In this document: positions 9,223 through 32,644 of the stretch, in pieces
Position numbering within the stretch: position 1 is the first letter of the stretch
How the letters are laid out: each line of letters opens with the position of its first letter
Made by a program: the position numbers and the translations under genes
Assembly (NCBI GenBank): GCA_009602725.1
Contig: WELB01000327.1
Location: 30,361 to 78,579, forward strand
Origin: Spirogloea muscicola
Taxonomy: Eukaryota; Streptophyta; Zygnematophyceae; Spirogloeales; Spirogloeaceae
Length of the DNA: 48,219 bases
Reading direction: 5' to 3'
Notes under the pieces: model-generated
Database searches by the model: none
Told to the model about the DNA's origin: nothing
The model's input: only the letters and a program-made list of their open reading frames with translations

Positions 9223-9801
9223 NGGTCACCAACCCCAGGCAACTAGGAGGCTGGCAAGTGGTGCCTTGACGGCGGCAGCGCGCATGGCATAAGGCACCCT
9301 GCTGCCGCACTCCAGCGTAGCATAGGGTCCTCTCGCGGCGCCGGCGAGGGAGGCGGGGCCGTCGATCAGTGCCATCGGAGGCACGGTGCTGCTCGCTCGC
9401 ATCGGACGGCGCCGAAGTGCCGCTGGGGATTGGGGGAGGATCGGATATTGCCTGCGGGATGCCACGCGGGAACGAGCCGACGGCGGTGCCGTCAGGAGAG
9501 ACGGACGCCGTTGAATCGGCGATATGTCATCAGCTTCGGGGGCCTGCGCCTGGGCCTCGTCGTCGGTCCCAATAATGCCTCTGTCGACTTGGCGGCCAGT
9601 CTGAGGCCAGTCGCTGTCGTCCATCGGCGCCCCAACTCCAACTTTGTGCGCGCCCGCTTTTCACAGGCTCGCCTCCTTTTCCTTTTTGAAAGTAGGCGCG
9701 CGGTGCGCATGAAATTGAAAGGGAGGCCAACTCTAGCCTTACCAGATGTCCTCGTACGGGAAGGCTGCTTTGAGAAAGAAAGAAGAAAGCGCGGCCAGAT
9801 T

Positions 9802-9890
9802 GACTGGTGGCCGGGAAAGGCCAGCCCAAAGGAAAGAAAGGGCTCGCCCATTGAGGATAGGGGCTAGACAAGCCAGCCCAAAAGAGAAGG
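9802..9890 (-). repeat. Two copies of the short GGGCTGGC element
   Basis: Read on the minus strand, each copy has a T-rich run, GGGCTGGC, about 5-7 bases, then a second arm (CGGCC or TAGCCCC). One is near 9802-9820 and one near 9850-9890; the latter continues into CCTCAATGGGCGAGCCC, which recurs almost exactly at 25858-25905. The core is an imperfect inverted repeat. The T-run-first orientation matches the direction of V-PPase transcription. Confidence 0.6.
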
Positions 9891-11700: not shown

Positions 11701-11731
<31 letters not shown>

Positions 11732-11732
11732 G

Positions 11733-14379
11733 GGAATGGCTTCCCAGNGCGCGCCGAGGAGGCCGCGGAGCTGCGCCGCAAGGCCAGCCGCGACAGGTGC
11801 GCGCGGGCAAGGCGTGGACGACGGCGGCCGCGCTGGCCTCAGCTCGTCCTCCCGAGCGCGGCCGCTGCGACGTCATATGCTCGGCGCGCTCTGCTGATGC
11901 CTTCTATGTTGACATGCGGCGGCGCTGGGAGAGCCAGGCCTGCGCAGGAGTCTGCGGCTCGGGAGGACGACAGCGCCGCCGCCGTGCAGCAGGCCGCCGC
12001 CAAGAAGCACAGGGTGTGCACCGCTGCCGCCGGCCTGGCCGGCTGCGCTGGCCCCTGCCTCCGGCGCTGCGTCCAGGCTCTGAAGCAGCAGTTGCGGGTG
12101 TGGCAGGTGGAGGAGGAGGACCGCGAGCAGGCAGCGCAGGAGCGCCGAGACGATGTGGCGCTCTCGCGCGCGGAGGTCATCAGGCGGCTGCGCGTGCTCA
12201 AGCACCCCGCTACGCTCTTTGGCGAGGACGAGCCGCAGCGCCTGGCCCGCCTCAAGGTGCGCTGCCTGCTGGCCCTCGCCGCTCTTCCGCCGGTTCCGAC
12301 CACACGCTTTGGCTGCTCTCAGCCGCCGTCATTCATCCGGCGAGGCTGCTGCAGGTGCCTGCTGCAGCTCACACGCGTGGCGCTCTCGCCTGGCGCGTTT
12401 CTGCGCTCTTGCAGCACATCCTGGAGACGGGTCAGGTGGACGTGGAGAGCGAGATGATGGAGGGCCAGCGCAACGACTTTCTGCACGACCTCCTCGAGAT
12501 GCGCAAGAGCGAGAAGCACGTATGCCACCGATGGCCCTAGAGGCCCTCTGCCTCCCGGCAGCTCTCTGATGCCCGCCTCTCGGCTGCGTTCTCGACTACC
12601 ATCGGCTGCCCTGCCCCGCTTGCTCCTGCGCTCCCTTGATCTGCTGGGCTTCTGGGCACCAGTTGCTGAGAGCTGGAGATGTGGGCGGTGCACACCAGGG
12701 GCGGTCAGAGCCGAGGAAGGAGAAAGCCAAGGACAAGGAGAGGCCCGAGGGCGATCAGGGTGAGGGGCACGCCAACGCAGAAGCAGACGCCGACGGGAGC
12801 GTCAACAACCTCCTGCACTCCAAGGATGACAAGGATGCCAAGAGGATGCGGGCCCTTTTTGACGAACTCTGTGACGAAGACAAGATCCTTGTCTTCTTCA
12901 AGCGCCTCCTCCTGGTTAGTCTCTCATCGTCCCTCTCCTCCCAATGTGCTGTTCATACACACGAATGACGACCCTGTGATGCCACCATAGAGTGGCTTCA
13001 AGCCATGCATCCTGAATCATGCATTGTCTCGCTGTCTCTTTCAACCTTAAAGCTCATTGTCAGCAACACGTACTCTCCTGCCTCGGCGAGTGATTGACTA
13101 AGAGCACATTGGAACACACCACATGCAATAGAGCGTGAACAAAGGATTCACAAGCTACTTAGAGTCGATTAAGCCCCACCTTCTTCCGGCAGAGCGTGAA
13201 CAAAGGATCCAGGTACCGCACACACTGCTTGTATGTGGCAACCAAAGATTTACCCTTGGCTGTTCTCCTCTCCGCTTCGGATCTGTCCTCTACTTCTCGC
13301 TCCCACTCCTGCAAAAATGCAAGCAGCGAGCGAACACAGCCTGCTGGTGATTGTGACGTTGGCTGGCCAAAATCATGCAGGTACATGACCTTAAGCACCT
13401 ACGAGGAAGTTTGAGCAAGTCACCTGATGCTTTACATGCATATAGAAGCACTAGACCATAGTGACCCAAAAAAGCTGGCCAGCCGCACACTCTCCACTCC
13501 ACCATGACAGTGCTCCAGGTGCATTCTGTCAAGGTGATTGCATTCATCAAGTAGTCAACTTAGCAGTACTTGTGGATTGATTGTGGTTGGGCTGTGACTT
13601 TGATAATCTCAAAAGCTTCAGGGTCGTTTCTTCCTGACTCTCTTGTTGTTGCATGATGCTGTTGTTCCAGCAACTGTATGATGATATCCGTGAAGCACTT
13701 CTGTACATTGTAAACAAGTGCCGAGAAAGGGATTACCTTGCTGCCATGGACAAGTACATCAAATTGGCCATCGGCAACTCGCCTTGGCCCATTGGAGTGA
13801 CCATGGTTGGCATTCACGAGCGGTCTGCTCGAGAAAAGATTCACACAAATTCTGTCGCCCACATCATGAACGATGAGACGACAAGAAAATATCTACAGGT
13901 CTGCAAACACATCTCTTCTGCCTCGCTTGTGACAGGCTTGACTGTAGTTCCAGTGGTCCACCTTAGTGTTGGGGCATTCTTGCAATGGCTGCAAGCCAAG
14001 GAGCTGCTTTTGATTGAGACGAGCACTAGGCTTTATGATGTACTGAGTATATTTCTTCTATACAAGTATCTGGATGACCTGTGTTTTAGTACTGTTGGGC
14101 ATTTTCCTTGGATATGTACTTGGGCGTTCAGCGGCTCAACAAGTTTCCGCTCGTCGTGCTGAAACTGGTCTGTGAAATATTGTGCAGTCGGTCAAGCGGT
14201 TATTGACCTTGGCGCAACGTAGATACCCATCTGCACCTTCCAAGTCTGTTGAGTTCAACAGCCTTGCTAATGGCAGCGATCTGCAGTCGCTGCTCAAGGA
14301 GGAAAGGGCGAAAGGCATTGCAGGCACTGACATGCTTCGCATCACTGCAACACCCGCAGAGGAGAATGGGTTTTTCTAG
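11733..14379 (+). CDS. PRP18: Pre-mRNA splicing factor PRP18 (second-step factor), one exon inverted
   Basis: Spliceosomal protein for the second transesterification step. Forward exons: about 11733-11796 (uncertain), 11932-12013, 12077-12256, 12415-12519, 12699-12914, 13671-13898, 14188-14379. Recognisable parts are the PRP4-like/SFM motif SRAEVIRRLRVLKHPATLFGE (split here: SRAEVIRRLR, ATLFGEDEP), the acidic KDDKDAKRMRALFDELCDED segment, and the Prp18 core with AIGNSPWPIGVTMVGIHERS and NDETTRKYLQ, ending after EFNSLANGSDLQSLL. The expected 43-residue piece joining FFKRLLL to QLYDDIREAL is absent from the plus strand and is encoded by a complete exon on the minus strand at 13180-13308. Exon 1 is unsettled: the ATG at 11733 is out of frame with AEEAAELRRKASRD, and an N lies at 11745. 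Confidence 0.9.
13180..13308 (-). CDS. PRP18: Inverted internal exon of PRP18
   Basis: On the minus strand this 129-base, phase 0-0 exon has a strong acceptor (TTTTTGCAG at its upstream side) and a donor (AAG followed by GTGGGG). It encodes 43 residues from EWEREVEDRSEAERR through SLVATYKQCVRYL to FTLCRKK, which is exactly the Prp18-domain segment missing between the plus-strand exons ending at 12914 and starting at 13671. Phases fit both neighbours. Intron sequence must have been inverted along with it. Transcribed from the PRP18 promoter in this arrangement, the exon would appear only as antisense within an enlarged intron. Exon loss would keep the frame but remove part of the conserved fold. 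Confidence 0.88.
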
Positions 14380-15516: not shown

Positions 15517-18500
15517 TCAGCCTTGAGCTTGCGGCCTGAAGCAGCAAGAAAATAAACCTCCACCACCCTTGCTCCCTGCCTTGCCAGCAGGCGTGGCAGT
15601 CATAGGCTGGGCAGCTGTCACACGCGGCTGTGTGACTTGTTTTCGTCCCAGGGCAATTGTATCTGAAAGACAGTGGTGAATATGGCTTAGCTGTTTATCC
15701 ACCGTAGGCTGGCTGCATGCAGCCAAATCAAGCAGAAGAAGCTGCTTTATGTAATGGTGACGCTCAATGCCTGACTCCAGCGATCTATTGCACGCAAGGT
15801 TGCAGCAAGAGAGTGAAGGTGCACCTGGTGCAACGACCTCAGTACTTGGCTCCTCCCAAGCAGCCTCAGACACGGATGGAGGGGAGACTCTGGCAGCTTC
15901 TTCAGCAACTCCAGCAAGTTTTCTTTGAGCTACTCTCCCACCCATCCACATACAATATCAAGAGACGAGCTTAGTGATAGACACGCGACAGAGTGATATG
16001 ATGGCTCACGGGAAAATGGCAGCTGTGCCCGCTCTAGCTGAGGGCACAGATCCCAGTAAGCTGTTGGTGTACAGTCATATGACGTAGAGACCCACTATAT
16101 ATCAAGCTGGGAGCTGATGCCCAATATAGGACAATACAGACATGATGTAGAGACCCATTATAAATCAAGCTGGGAGCTGATGCCTAATATAGGACATAAC
16201 TGCACATCAGAGTCCAGAATGCCAAGGCCACATGTACCTTGTCCTTGAGCTCCTTGAGGCTCTTTTGTAACAAGGACAGTCGTTACCGATGGGGGAACTG
16301 GTCAACACAGCAATTGCATATACTGGATGTCAGCGCTGCTCACACTTAACAGCAAAATGCACTCCCTCGTGGAGTGCACAGAATCAAAAGTCAACAAGGA
16401 GTTGCTTCTTCCATCGCAAAATGCACATTGATCAAAGAGCAAACAGCCAGCTGACTAAGGGCTACCTGCTGCAATTACGTCTCCTTGCACACTGTCTCTC
16501 ACAAGTACTGTTGTATCTGATGGGGGAACTTGACAACACAACAAATGCAGAGTGTGAAATTCAGAGCTGCTTCCATACAACAGCAGTAACCAACTCTCTC
16601 AGCATGACAGCACAGTCTAACAAGCCTTGGCACTCTCATAAGGCCAACAGTAAGATGCTGGACTCCGAGTCCTCCTAAGCACGTAACAACAGCCTTCACA
16701 CACCATAAGGCCTACCTGCTGCAATAACTTCTCCTTGCATACCCGCACCTCCTTGCATACTTGCTGCAGGTGCAATTCTTGGGTCAGCAAACTCCTGAAT
16801 CAAGATTTGGCCCCATGTTCAAGGCTGCAGCTGCAAGTGAAGAAGCAGCCAGAGTCCAGCAACTTTTCCCTGAGCTACTCTCCCCCCAAACATATCCTAA
16901 CATATGCAATATCCAGAGACAACCTTAATGACTGACACAAGACAGCATCGTACACGTTGATGGCTCCCGTGAGAATGACAGCTGTGCCTGCTCTAACTGA
17001 GGACACAGATCCCAGTAATCTGTTGGTTTTCAAGCATATGATGTAGATACCCATTACATATGGAGCTGGGAGCTGATGCTCAAAACAGGACATAACTGCA
17101 TATCAGAGTCCAGAATGCCAAGGCCACATGTACCTTGTCCTTGAGCTCCTTGTGGCTCTTTTGTACCAAGAACAGTCGTTTCCGATGGAGGAACTGGTCA
17201 ATACAGCAGATGCATATACTGGATGTCAGAGCTGGTCACATCTCACAGCAAGATTGCACTCCCTCGTGGGGTGCACAGTATCAAACATAAATCAACAAGG
17301 AGTTGCTTGTTCCGTCCCAAAGTGCACAAGAATAAAAGAGCAAACAGCGCCAACTGCGGGCTACCTGTTGCAATTACTTCTCCTTGCACACTGTCTCTCA
17401 CAAGTACCATTGTATCTGACGGGGGAACTTGACAACACAACAAACCCAAAGTGTGGGATTTAGAGCTGCTTCCATACAACAGCAGTAACCAAATCTCTCA
17501 GCATGACAGCACACTCTAACAAGCCTTGGAACTCTCATAAGGTCAACAATAAGATGCTAATATTCGAGTCCTCTGTAAGCATGTAACGACAGCCTTCACA
17601 CTTCATCTTGCTACATGAGGCCTACCTGCTGCAATAACTTCTCCTTGCATACCCGCACCTCCTTGCATACTTGCTGCAGGTGCCAAGGCTGCAGCTGCAA
17701 GTGAAGAAGCAGCCAGAGTCCAGAGTGAGGAGAGTAGCTCAAGATCTTTGAGCTACTCTCCCACCCAAACATTTCTAAACATATGCAACATCAAGAGACA
17801 ACCTTAATGATTGGACAAATGACTGCACTGTACACGTTGATGGCTCCTGGGAGAATGGCAGCTGTACCTGCTCTAGCTGAGGACACAGATCCTAATCATC
17901 TGTTGGTGTTCAAGCAAATGGACTGATGCCTAATACAGGACGTAATTGTATATCGGAGTCCAGAATGCCAAGACCACATGTACCTTGTGTTTGAGCTCCT
18001 TGTGGCTCTTTTGTGACAAGGACGGTTGTTTGCGATGGGGGAACTGGTCAACACAGCAATTGCATATACTGGATGTCAGAGCAGCTCACATTTAACAGCA
18101 AGAACGCCATCTCTTGTGGAGTGAAGAGAATCAAACATAAGTCAACAAGGAGTTGCTTGTTTCAACCCAAAGTGCACATCAATACAGTAGCAAATAGCCA
18201 TGCTGACTGAGGGCTACCTGCTGCAATTACTTCTCCTTGCACACTGTCTCTCACAAGAACTGTTGTATCTGACGGGGGAACTTGACATCACAACAAACTC
18301 AAAGTGTGGAAATTAGAGCTGCTTCCATACAACAGCAGTAACCAGCTCTCTCAGCATGACAGCACGGTCTAATTGGCCTTGACAAGCTTTCAGAAGGTCA
18401 ATAATACGATGCTAAATCCGAGTCGTCTATAAGCACATAAAAACAGGCTTCACACACTATGTTGCTATATGAGGCCTACCTGCTGCTATAACTTCTCCTT

Positions 18501-21500
18501 GCATACTTCCAATTGCTGCAGGTGCAGTTTTTGGCTCAGCAACTCCCGAAAAGTTTGGCCCCATGTTCAAGGCTGCAGCTGCAAGTGAAGAAGCAGCCAG
18601 AGTCCAGCAGCTTTTGTTTGAGCTACTCTTCCACCCAAACATATCCAAAAATATGCACTATCAAGAGACAACCTTAATGATTGACATGTGACAGCATTGT
18701 ACAAGCTGATGGCTGTACCGGCTCTAGCTGAGTCCTCTATAAGCTCGTAACAACAGGCTTCACACACTATGTTGCTATACGAAGCCTACCTGCTGCTATA
18801 ACTTCTCCTTGCGTACTTCCAATTGCTGCAGGTGCCATCTTTGGCTCAGGAACTCCTGAAAGGTCTGACTCCATGTTCAAGGCTGCAGCTGCAACTGAAG
18901 AAGCAGCCCAAGTCCAGCAACTTTTCTTTGAGCTCTCTCTCACCCAAATATTTCCAAAAGTATGCACTATCAAGAGAAAACCTTAATAATTGACATGTGA
19001 CAGCATTGTAAACGCTGATTGCTGTACCTGCTCTAGCTGAGGACACAAATCCTGGTAATCTGTTGTTGTACAGACGTGTGATGTAGAGACACATTATACA
19101 TCAAGCTGGGAGCTTGATGCCTGATGCCTAATATATAATTAACTGCATACAAAGTCCCGAATGCCAAGGCCATATGTACCTTGTCCTTGAGCACCTTGTG
19201 GCTCTTTTGTGACAAGAACGGTAGTTTGCGATGGGGGAACTGGTCAACACAGCAATTGCATTCACTGGATCAGAGCTGCTCACACCTAACGGCAAACCGC
19301 ACTCCCTCGTGGAGTGCACAGAATCGAACATAAGTCAACAAGGAGTTGCTTGTTCCATCCCAAGATGCAAATTGATCAAAGAGCAAACAGCCAGCTGACT
19401 AAGGGCTACCTGCTGCAATTACTTCTCCTTGCACACTGTCTCTCACAAGGATTGTTGTATCTGACGGAGGAACTTGACAACACAACAAATGCAAAAGTGT
19501 GGATGGATCTGGATCAGAGCTGCTTCCATACAACAGCAGTAACCAACTCTCTCAGCATGACAGCACAGTCTAACAAATCTTGGAAATCTCACAGGTCAAC
19601 AATATGATGCTGGAATCCGAGTCCTCTATAAGTACGTTACAACAACCTTCACAGATTTTCTTGCTATATGCGGCCTACCTGCTGCAATAAATTGTCGTTG
19701 CATACTTCCAATGGCTGCAGGTGCAGTGTTTGGCTCCATGTTCAAGGCTGCAGCAGCAATTATTTCCCCATCAGGGAGCCTCTCTCAGACCAGGGCAAGT
19801 AAGGAGATCAAGGTAGGCACGAGCTCAACAACACTTTGTATGAATCCCCCAGATTTGCCCCACTACAATTGAAGATATTTGTACATATCAGCACTACACT
19901 ATGATACCGCAGGCCTGGCTTGAAGCATTCGCACTGCCGTTGTAACGTACCAGAAGAGTAAGTGGCAGCACTGCCATTGCCAGTGCCATTCAGATCACCC
20001 ACATTGACAGGCTGTGAGAAGCTGGGCGGCTTCATGGCAGTTGTAGGTGGAGGCGGCGCAGCCCGGTGTGGCACTACTCTATGAGAGCCAGGCAAACCTC
20101 TGCTCCCATCTGTCTCAAGTGGAGCAGCCACACCAGCTAAGGGAAGCACACCGGCAGCGAGCGAGTTGATCTCATGGCCTTCAGGTTTGGCTGCCTCGCT
20201 CGGAGGAATGGTAAAGTCTGCTGCCCCTTGAGGGGCAGTAGGTGCTGCCTGGGAGATGGGACCAGCGGCAGCAGGGGCCATGCCTTCTTTGGACAACAGA
20301 CTAGGCTCAGCACCCAGTAAACCTGCAGAAGCCCCAGTTGGTGCCAGGCCACTTGCAAGTGGAGCAGGCTGTAGTGACTCAACCAGGGGCTGCGCCCTTC
20401 CTTCAAACTGCGTCGATGGCAGTGTCTCTGGTTGTTGTGCAGGGGCAGCATTCAGCACGGGTGGAGTATGGAGGCCCTCCTCCATTACCATCTGCTCCCT
20501 TGCAATCCCCTCCATGCGTGGTACTCCATGCTCTGTCCCGCAAGCATGCAGTCAGAGCGACAAAATGGTGAGCATCAGATCTGACCCAGTCCAGCAGTGA
20601 TCAGGCTGCTCCACAACTGCTTAGGCAACACTTTGCGGGCTGCAGGTAAAGACATTCCACCTTCAGCTGGAAAAGGCTGTGCAACCTCCCTCTGGGGCTG
20701 CATGTTCTCTTCTCTCTGTAGCAGTGGCTGTGCTCCAGCAGGTTGTGCAGGGGAGGCGTCCATCAAAGATGGAGCACCGAGGGCCCCTACCACTCCTGAC
20801 TGCTCATTAGCAACCATATAATCTGGTGGTACGCTGCTCCCTGTTCAGCCAGCATAATGCCCGACATTGACCATCATGAGCAGCACAATTGTGGTCAGGA
20901 AAGTGGTCAGATTTGGAGGTGTAGCCTGCTATATCTCAAAGGGATGAGTTGCTGTCTGAGAAAGGCTCATCATCTACGAACCTGTCAAGGGTCCCCCTAT
21001 TGGCGTGAAGCGGCTTGCAAATATAGCAGGCTGTGCAGGCTCCTCCAGGGGCCGCTCTCTCTGGCCCAACTGCTCTGGTAGCCTTGTTCCAGGCTGTTGT
21101 GCAGTGGAGGCGGCCATCAACAACGGAGCACCGAGGGCCACGGCTGCCTCTCTGTCTCTCTGCTCCGATGCAGCATCGTTCACTGCTGGTGCCCCACTCT
21201 CTGTTCCGCAAGCATGCAGTCAGCATGCACCACTATAAGCAGGGCTCTTAAGCAGCTTTCATCTGTATCTAGCATAACTGCCCTGCTAATGTCGTGCAGG
21301 CGGAACAGCTATTATCTCAATCTTTTCAGCTAGTAGTCATAACAAGCCTGACCTGGATATCTGAAGCCATTCTCATGGCTCTGTGCGGCTGAAGCTGCTG
21401 CTCTTGCCGCTGCGGCAAGCTGGGCCGAAGAAGCACTAACAGCCTCCGCTGCAGCAACATCTCCACTTGGAGCAGGCTCAAGTCCTCCTAATTTGTAAGC

Positions 21501-26659: not shown

Positions 26660-27100
26660 GAAAGCTCCGACACTACTCTGACTACCCCCGCAGCGATCAC
26701 CTCCTCCCGGCGGCAGTTGACACTTTCGGGTGAATAGGTCCTCGCTTCAATACCTTACTGGAGAATATTGCAAGTTTGGGATATGCTCGACGTGAGGATC
26801 TGCTTCCAGCTGGAAGCTCAGATGGGCATGCCGCAGCCTACTTGTCATTCTTGCGACGTCGAGTGTCAGCTTGTCTGCAGCGAGCTCAGGCTCATGCGTT
26901 GCATCAGAAAGCTGGTCGAGCCTTAGCTGGTAGCTCAAGAGCTTGTCGATTGCCGTCCGGTATTCGGGCATCACTTAGCGACCTCTATGTACTGACTCGT
27001 GGTTACTGAGCGGGTCAGCTTAGCAGCAAGTGACGTACATTTGTCAATGTGCTTGCCTTTGTACTTGGCCACACATGGCCTCCCCATCTCTTACTACACA
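26660..27100 (+). mobile_element. LINE-like retrotransposon 3' end, copy C (plus)
   Basis: Similar to copy A over its whole length, for example TTGGGATATGCTCGACGTGAGG against CTAGGATATGCACGACGTGAGG. The frame 26776-27009 reads GYARREDLLPAGSSDGHAAA, then LSFLRRRVSACLQRAQAHAL, and ends SLSDLYVLTRGY with stop TGA at 27009. The 3' UTR has CAATGTGCTTGCC and GGCCACACATGGCCTCCCC, the latter shared with copy F. This is the best-preserved coding tail in the window, though it still lacks the upstream domains. Confidence 0.55.
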
Positions 27101-27179
27101 CGTCTTCACAGCCACTGCCCTCCCTTGGAAGAATCCTTCTTCAGTGGCCGCTGTCGCTGTGTGCTTAAGAGCTTTTCTG

Positions 27180-31475: not shown

Positions 31476-32373
31476 GCCCCTGGCGTGTCGCTTGTTCTAT
31501 CAGCCTGTTTGGGCGGCGCATGAAGTGGCAGACGGGCTGTCCGACCCAGCAGTACTGACAACCAGTTGGGTCCGGGCCAAGAGAGGGGAGGCCAACCTAG
31601 CCGAGCTGCTCGGTTGCGGGGAGAAGTGGCAGGAGCAAGTGGTGCTCCAAGTGGTGTCTCGTTGCGCCGGTGCCTGGCGAGCGGCGCAGGAGGATGATGG
31701 GGCGTTCTCTCCCCGGCATGCACTGCGGGTGGTGGCGGGGGGGAAGGGATGGCCAGGCAGCAGGGCGAGGCTGGAAGAGAAGGAGTGTGTAGCAAGCGAG
31801 GGAGGGGAGGCAAGGCGTGCACTATGCATTGAGGGAAAGGACTGTTGTGTATTGGAAAAAATTGGAAGGCCAAAGTGGCCAAGTACAGCGGCAAACCCAT
31901 CTGATGACGTACTTTGAGCACTGCAGAATGACCCGCTCAGTAGGCGCGGGTCAGGACACGAAGGTGGCTAATCGATGCCTGAATGCTGGATGGCAATTCC
32001 CAAGCCCTTCTGCCACCAGCTAAGGGAACGTAAATGCGTGTGTATAAAGAGATGGGGAGGCCATGTGTGGCCTCCCCAGTACAAAGGGGGTTCGAGCCGA
32101 GCCGGTGCGCTGCTCCGGCGGGAAGAGTAGCAGGAGGGGCCGGGGGCTGCAACAAGCCAAGCAAGTGCAGATGACGGGGCCGCTCAGTCCGAACGGCCAG
32201 GCAGGCGAGGGCCCAGGAGAAGGCGAAGGCGGGCGGTGCGCATGACTGCAGGAGAGGCAGATGCGAGCCACTGCACTGTTCAGGCAGGAGCTGGTGCCAA
32301 ACGTGGGGCCAAGTGGAACGAAGTGCAATGGCCCCAGCGTTGCGCACTTTCGGTATCAGCAGCCGCGCTCTTG
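31476..32373. other. Intergenic region between transporter and right inverted-repeat arm
   Basis: The first 450 bases are purine-rich on the plus strand with no recognisable gene; open frames occur on both strands but lack family features. From about 31920 the sequence is retroelement-derived (copy F, minus strand). Nothing else stands out. Confidence 0.5.
31937..32110 (-). mobile_element. LINE-like retrotransposon tail, copy F (minus)
   Basis: The minus-strand frame ends LPSSIQASISHLRVLTRAY with stop at 31937, aligning with LPSGIRASLSDLYVLTRGY of copy C. Just 5' of it, the segment AGAGATGGGGAGGCCATGTGTGG at about 32049-32071 (plus) matches the reverse complement of copy C's 3' UTR. That order is rearranged relative to copy C, so this is a scrambled or nested copy. 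Confidence 0.5.
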
Positions 32374-32622
32374 TGGCTCTTCATCAACGTGCAGGGCGCG
32401 CTCTAAGTCAGGCCTCCGGCTTTCGTGGCGGCGCTCCAGCTCCCCAAGTTAGCTTGTCAGATTTGTTTGTGCTCACCCGTGGGTACTAATGTCATCTTAG
32501 GTACCTTAGATTAGGTCTCCGTATTATGTAGCATTGTTTAGTCTGCACTCGACTCTGCCTGAACAATGTATTGGCTTGAATTGGCCTCCCTTTCAATTCA
32601 TGCGCCCCGCGCGCCTTCTCTC
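32340..32622 (+). mobile_element. LINE-like retrotransposon tail, copy G; right arm (32374-32622) of the inverted repeat
   Basis: Plus-strand coding tail ALHQRAGRALSQASGFRGG, then SLSDLFVLTRGY-equivalent with stop at 32489, then 3' UTR through CATGCGCCCCGCGCGCCTTC to 32622. Near-identical to the left arm apart from one base. The sequence 5' of 32374 still aligns weakly with copy D (R-A-L-V-A-L-H-Q-R against Q-A-L-A-L-H-Q-R), so the high-identity block starts inside a shared coding sequence rather than at an element end. Confidence 0.6.
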
Positions 32623-32644
32623 TTGTGCGGCCCGAAAGCCGACT

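Follow-up and report, generated by a model that had tools for sequence, protein, structure and literature searches.

How does a complete exon of a splicing-factor gene, together with both of its splice sites, come to lie on the opposite strand to its neighbours? The question is raised by the PRP18 gene in a window of 48,219 nucleotides from Spirogloea muscicola, the whole stretch of DNA analysed here (G000:C327:30361–78579, from an assembly of 153 Mb in 471 contigs). The original prediction offered three answers: a small inversion of roughly 150–700 bp, a fragment flipped by the assembly, or an unusual mechanism in the alga.

Prp18 is a second-step splicing factor, usually with a PRP4-like motif near its N-terminus. 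On the plus strand of the window, exon 2 (11938–12013), exon 3 (12107–12256), exon 4 (12415–12519, with identical DNA in all three copies of the gene in the genome), exon 5 (12699–12914), exon 7 (13671–13898), and exon 8 with the stop codon (14188–14379) could be assigned, exons 3 and 7 by profile match and exon comparison and exon 8 by exon comparison; the lengths of exons 2–8 do not differ between the three copies. The PRP4-like motif is matched by the frame over exon 3 (PF08799, E = 3.3e-10). Exon 7 encodes the core of the Prp18 domain, covering positions 52–133 of PF02840 (E = 7.2e-38), and its frame scores 130.3 bits against a cut-off of 32.5, placing the gene in the family. Exon 1 is represented by a remnant at 11749–11796 on the same strand, whose end and frame were read by eye. 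Its 5′ part is missing beside a single N at 11748, and no start codon was seen at this remnant, where the C82 copy has an ATG-started exon; alignment with C82 ends at 11727 and restarts at 11749, and in this interval the window is 115 bases shorter than C82. A single N stands in or beside this GC-rich exon in two of the three copies (window 11748; C379, L006 near 4590, reverse strand), and both look like closed assembly gaps.

Exon 5 ends in phase 0 at the donor CTG|GTTAGT. The 43 residues that should follow had been predicted on the minus strand at 13180–13308, in phase 0 between plus-strand exons, and these coordinates proved exact: exon 6 (129 nt) is bounded there by the acceptor TTTTTGCAG|GAG and the donor AAG|GTGGGG, both on the minus strand, and exons 5, 6, and 7 join in phase 0. 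The minus-strand frame 13159–13398 contains EWEREVEDRSEAERRTAKGKSLVATYKQCVRYLDPLFTLCRKK and matches positions 6–52 of the 143 in PF02840 with E = 1.2e-7; the score of 32.4 bits falls 0.1 short of the curated cut-off (32.5). In the genome search, the exon 6 matches of the three copies scored 30.5, 27.9, and 31.6 bits, none passing the cut-off; by itself, exon 6 resembles the family only weakly, whichever copy is taken. Chance can nevertheless be ruled out for the minus-strand exon, because the same 43 residues are found letter for letter, on the coding strand and at the expected place, in both other copies, and because blastn aligned window 13035–13515 with C82 at 92.9% over 480 columns (E 0) and with C379 at 85.2% over 479 columns (E 1.8e-154).

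The expectation that Prp18 homologues carry the 43-residue segment at exactly this point was likewise borne out by C82 and C379, which encode it colinearly. Both matched exons stand on one strand in these copies and on opposite strands in C327; a nearly complete Prp18 domain (profile positions about 2–142) is thus encoded colinearly by the joined exons 5–8 of C82 and C379 and not by the window copy. The C82 protein matches three distinct solved sequences (1dvk_A, 5mps_a, and 9if7_SD), of which 1dvk is the yeast core structure. The best of these matches begins at query residue 103 and so takes in the last 13 residues of exon 6 and what follows them.

A forward copy of exon 6 in the same intron, which the original prediction named as decisive against an inversion, was looked for and not found. 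Within the window the inverted piece matches only itself (E 1e-3), and duplication of the exon rather than inversion was rejected on these grounds. The piece matches one place in the C82 region and one in the C379 region, where a weak 44-column match was also seen. A 21-nt repeat (13130–13150 and 13191–13211) places the 3′ part of exon 6 a second time in the neighbouring intron, 61 bases away. It was considered as a scar of the inversion and rejected: degenerate forms, recognized by eye, follow exon 6 at the corresponding position in both C82 and C379, so the repeat is older than the inversion.

The second PRP18 locus that was to be sought exists twice, with exon 6 forward in both cases. A whole-genome search with the Prp18 family scored nine candidates and returned six exon matches, two each on C327 (the window), C82, and C379, giving three loci. 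With the gene's DNA as query, seven matching pieces were obtained, all at these three loci, by a search that omits common words and that weak matches can escape. The C82 and C379 copies are syntenic with the window, whereby colinearity extends over most of the window for C82 and from 11.7 kb onward for C379, with breaks in each at about 26–28 and 32 kb. Upstream of PRP18, C379 lacks colinearity with the window over about 7.9 kb, which counts against the explanation preferred below. The stretch from 30 to 36 kb also matches both other contigs at 84–92%, with the exception of a dispersed repeat. A short repeat of about 250 bases at about 32369–32633 has matches of 98–100% on at least 31 other contigs (among the best 40 of 5024 candidates scored) and is probably a recently active mobile element. 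Window 15906–19736 gives many overlapping matches to C82 and C379, mostly at 70–88% and on shifted diagonals. This pattern suggests a tandem array of diverged units, each roughly 0.87 kb long, and the three sets may differ in how many they contain.

Prp8 (PF08083), like PRP18, has three loci, on C132, C36, and C19 (L018–L023; 18 exon matches in total), which are 88.6–89.7% alike over about 12.6–13 kb. The genome therefore seems to hold three similar chromosome sets, which may reflect triploidy, hybrid origin, or uncollapsed haplotypes.

Base-level comparison of the window with both other copies resolved the difference as one simple inversion of 481 bp, at about 13035–13515, which carries exon 6, its acceptor and donor, and parts of both introns on the minus strand, between flanking matches of 84–94%. 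The size falls within the range first guessed. Within the region originally under suspicion (12915–13670), the inverted part does not take up the whole intron. As C82 and C379 agree in having the exon forward, we regard the orientation in the window copy as derived. Across the left junction the sequence is TTGTCTC-GCTG-TCTCTTTC, and across the right it is CAGTGCTC-CAGGTG. Here CTT and GCC, present at the junction points of C82 and C379, are missing from the window copy, amounting to about 3 bp lost per junction, and GCTG (13031–13034) is a 4-base filler at the left junction on one reading, in which GC could also be ancestral.

These features are those of a simple end-joining inversion, with the ancestral orientation given by two of two relatives, short scars, and no long inverted repeats at its flanks. 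In an ancestor of this chromosome set, the introns on either side of exon 6 would each have been broken once, at points about 485 bp apart, and the piece between would have been turned round and rejoined by end joining, leaving the small losses and the filler. No inverted match of 7 bases or more was found between the junction flanks (12971–13095 and 13456–13580), and none of the eight inverted pairs listed bounds the piece. This argues against repeat-mediated recombination and also against a programmed invertible switch, which was rejected for want of inverted repeats bounding the piece. No support was found for an unusual mechanism in the alga.

A more serious alternative is an assembly artefact, in which 481 bp of this copy were inserted the wrong way round during assembly or gap filling. 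Three similar sets make assembly hard, and the assembly is locally imperfect (single-N gaps at 9223 and 11748), which counts against a real inversion; single-N joins occur within this same gene and in the C379 copy. Ns are present in the window only at 9223, 11748, and 32828, however, with none in or beside the inverted piece. Neither junction has an N, and the nearest is the one at exon 1. The absence of an inverted repeat of at least 7 bases between the junction flanks also leaves nothing of that kind to mislead an assembler. The small losses and the filler would be expected as marks of end joining and not from a plainly flipped contig, which is an argument and not a proof. In addition, the piece has private variants, 10 in the 341 columns of its noncoding part, a level much like that of the intron sequence next to it (3 of 115 and 3 of 144 columns). 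It is therefore this copy's own DNA and not borrowed from another. An assembly artefact is, on balance, unlikely, the junction scars, the lack of Ns, and the lack of flanking inverted repeats having weakened the proposal of a flipped fragment. We consider it very probable that the window copy carries a real, copy-specific micro-inversion that arose by end joining, that its exon 5–7 product is probably non-functional, and that the other copies supply Prp18.

The background of comparable events was gauged by a scan for reverse matches of at least 40 bases near the expected place, in the three pairs around PRP18 and the three around Prp8. All 14 fell in the PRP18 pairs (7, 4, and 3), with 0 in the three Prp8 pairs, for which 12.7–13.1 kb was alignable per pair, with 7030 and 6283 N present in two of the three pieces. 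The exon 6 inversion itself accounts for two of the 14. Two candidates, window 9778–9838 and 26950–27102, were rejected as inversions, each having several other matches and being attributed to dispersed repeats. The remaining 10, which are weaker, lie at about 26.1–32.7 kb of the window or in matching stretches of C82 or C379. Among the matches re-tested, namely the exon 6 inversion and the two rejected candidates, the inversion is the only single-copy reverse match near its expected place.

If the window copy is transcribed from the plus strand, exon 6 and its splice sites should be unreadable in that transcript. Judged by the other copies, the acceptor of exon 7 is the next one after exon 5, and the 756 nt from 12915 to 13670 would be removed as one intron. 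Because both exon ends are in phase 0, exons 5 and 7 join in frame, 43 residues short, which is about 30% of the Prp18 domain. Against the Prp18 model, this join scores 152.3 bits and matches only from position 40 of 143, compared with 200.3 bits over positions 2–142 for both forward copies. Of the in-frame, exon-skipped protein that had been foreseen, the arithmetic holds; the product itself we infer. Such a protein would be expected to misfold or lose function, and the window copy probably no longer makes the normal protein, with C82 and C379 presumably supplying Prp18.

A flipped copy might instead remain productive, through trans-splicing with a transcript of the minus strand or through a cryptic exon in the intron. 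A cryptic inclusion is possible because, in an inversion of human PRKN exon 5, the cDNA contained 93 bp of the inverted intron in frame (PMC8421701). Acceptor-like sites at 13381 and 13519 also pass the matrix threshold in the intron, and the coding sequence is without visible decay. Yet no donor in the intron passes its threshold, and the lost residues belong to a conserved domain. When both thresholds were lowered by 3 bits, one in-frame cryptic-exon candidate of 15 nt (13519–13533) appeared, by a weak matrix built from only 18 donors and 21 acceptors of the three PRP18 copies. A working protein from the flipped copy is accordingly rated as extremely improbable.

Private changes in exons 3–8 (exons 1 and 2 left out, and one three-way site not assigned) were N = 4 and S = 12 for the window copy, N = 5 and S = 11 for C82, and N = 1 and S = 19 for C379. 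There is no excess of replacements, so either constraint acted on the window copy during most of the time since it diverged, or the counts are too low to reveal decay. Exon 6 of this copy has one private change in 129 positions, which is silent, and no amino acid change in 43; in the absence of selection about 4 changes would be expected there, a number too small for dating the inversion. For six other intron stretches of the window copy, 30 private changes in 927 columns were counted (1.1 to 6.4% each). There is no clear coding decay in the window copy, which counts against the explanation preferred here and implies that the loss of function is recent or not established; the inversion may itself be a recent event.

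Retention of exon 6 without coding change would fit a role in antisense and would fit a recent origin as well. It was considered whether the flipped copy could serve as an inbuilt regulator of the two sister copies, by antisense or small RNA, a splicing factor then being controlled by its own excised intron. In the transcript of this copy, the intron would carry the flipped exon as a 129-nt antisense of PRP18 exon 6, with 2 and 4 differences from the exons of C82 and C379, respectively, with perfect runs of up to 54 nt (C82) and 35 nt (C379), and Piwi-domain matches were found on C188, C41, C54, and C5 (19 exon matches, several with an internal stop). The near-identity to the sister exons and the Piwi-domain matches make this reading testable, and we regard it as very improbable.

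With two further forward copies of PRP18 in the genome, the biological stakes of the inversion are lowered. It would provide a clear case from nature of a tiny inversion through which the transcript of a splicing gene is deprived of one of its exons, a way to lose one gene copy in a genome with three similar sets, and a natural antisense of a splicing-factor mRNA that is open to test. Copy number and splice-site sequences are left intact, so coverage-based checks would miss such an inversion.

Among literature titles on Prp18 in green algae and on microinversions in subgenomes, none was about such a case. The window copy resembles other members of the Prp18 family (PF02840) in its domain match and its upstream PRP4-like motif, and differs in having exon 6, domain positions about 6–52, on the opposite strand. 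The human PRKN exon 5 inversion is alike in having intronic breakpoints on either side of one exon and no homologous repeats at the breakpoints, its junctions being ascribed to end joining or replicative repair (PMC8421701). There, too, the exon was lost, in that case as seen in the cDNA, with the frame kept, alongside the in-frame inclusion noted above. The two differ in scale, PRKN having a 77-kb inversion followed by a common 49-kb deletion (PMC8421701) and PRP18 an inversion of 481 bp. They also differ in setting: the former is described as a human disease allele with cDNA evidence, and the latter is one of three gene copies, known from DNA. No new mechanism is indicated by the PRP18 locus; exon inversion is a known kind of mutation.
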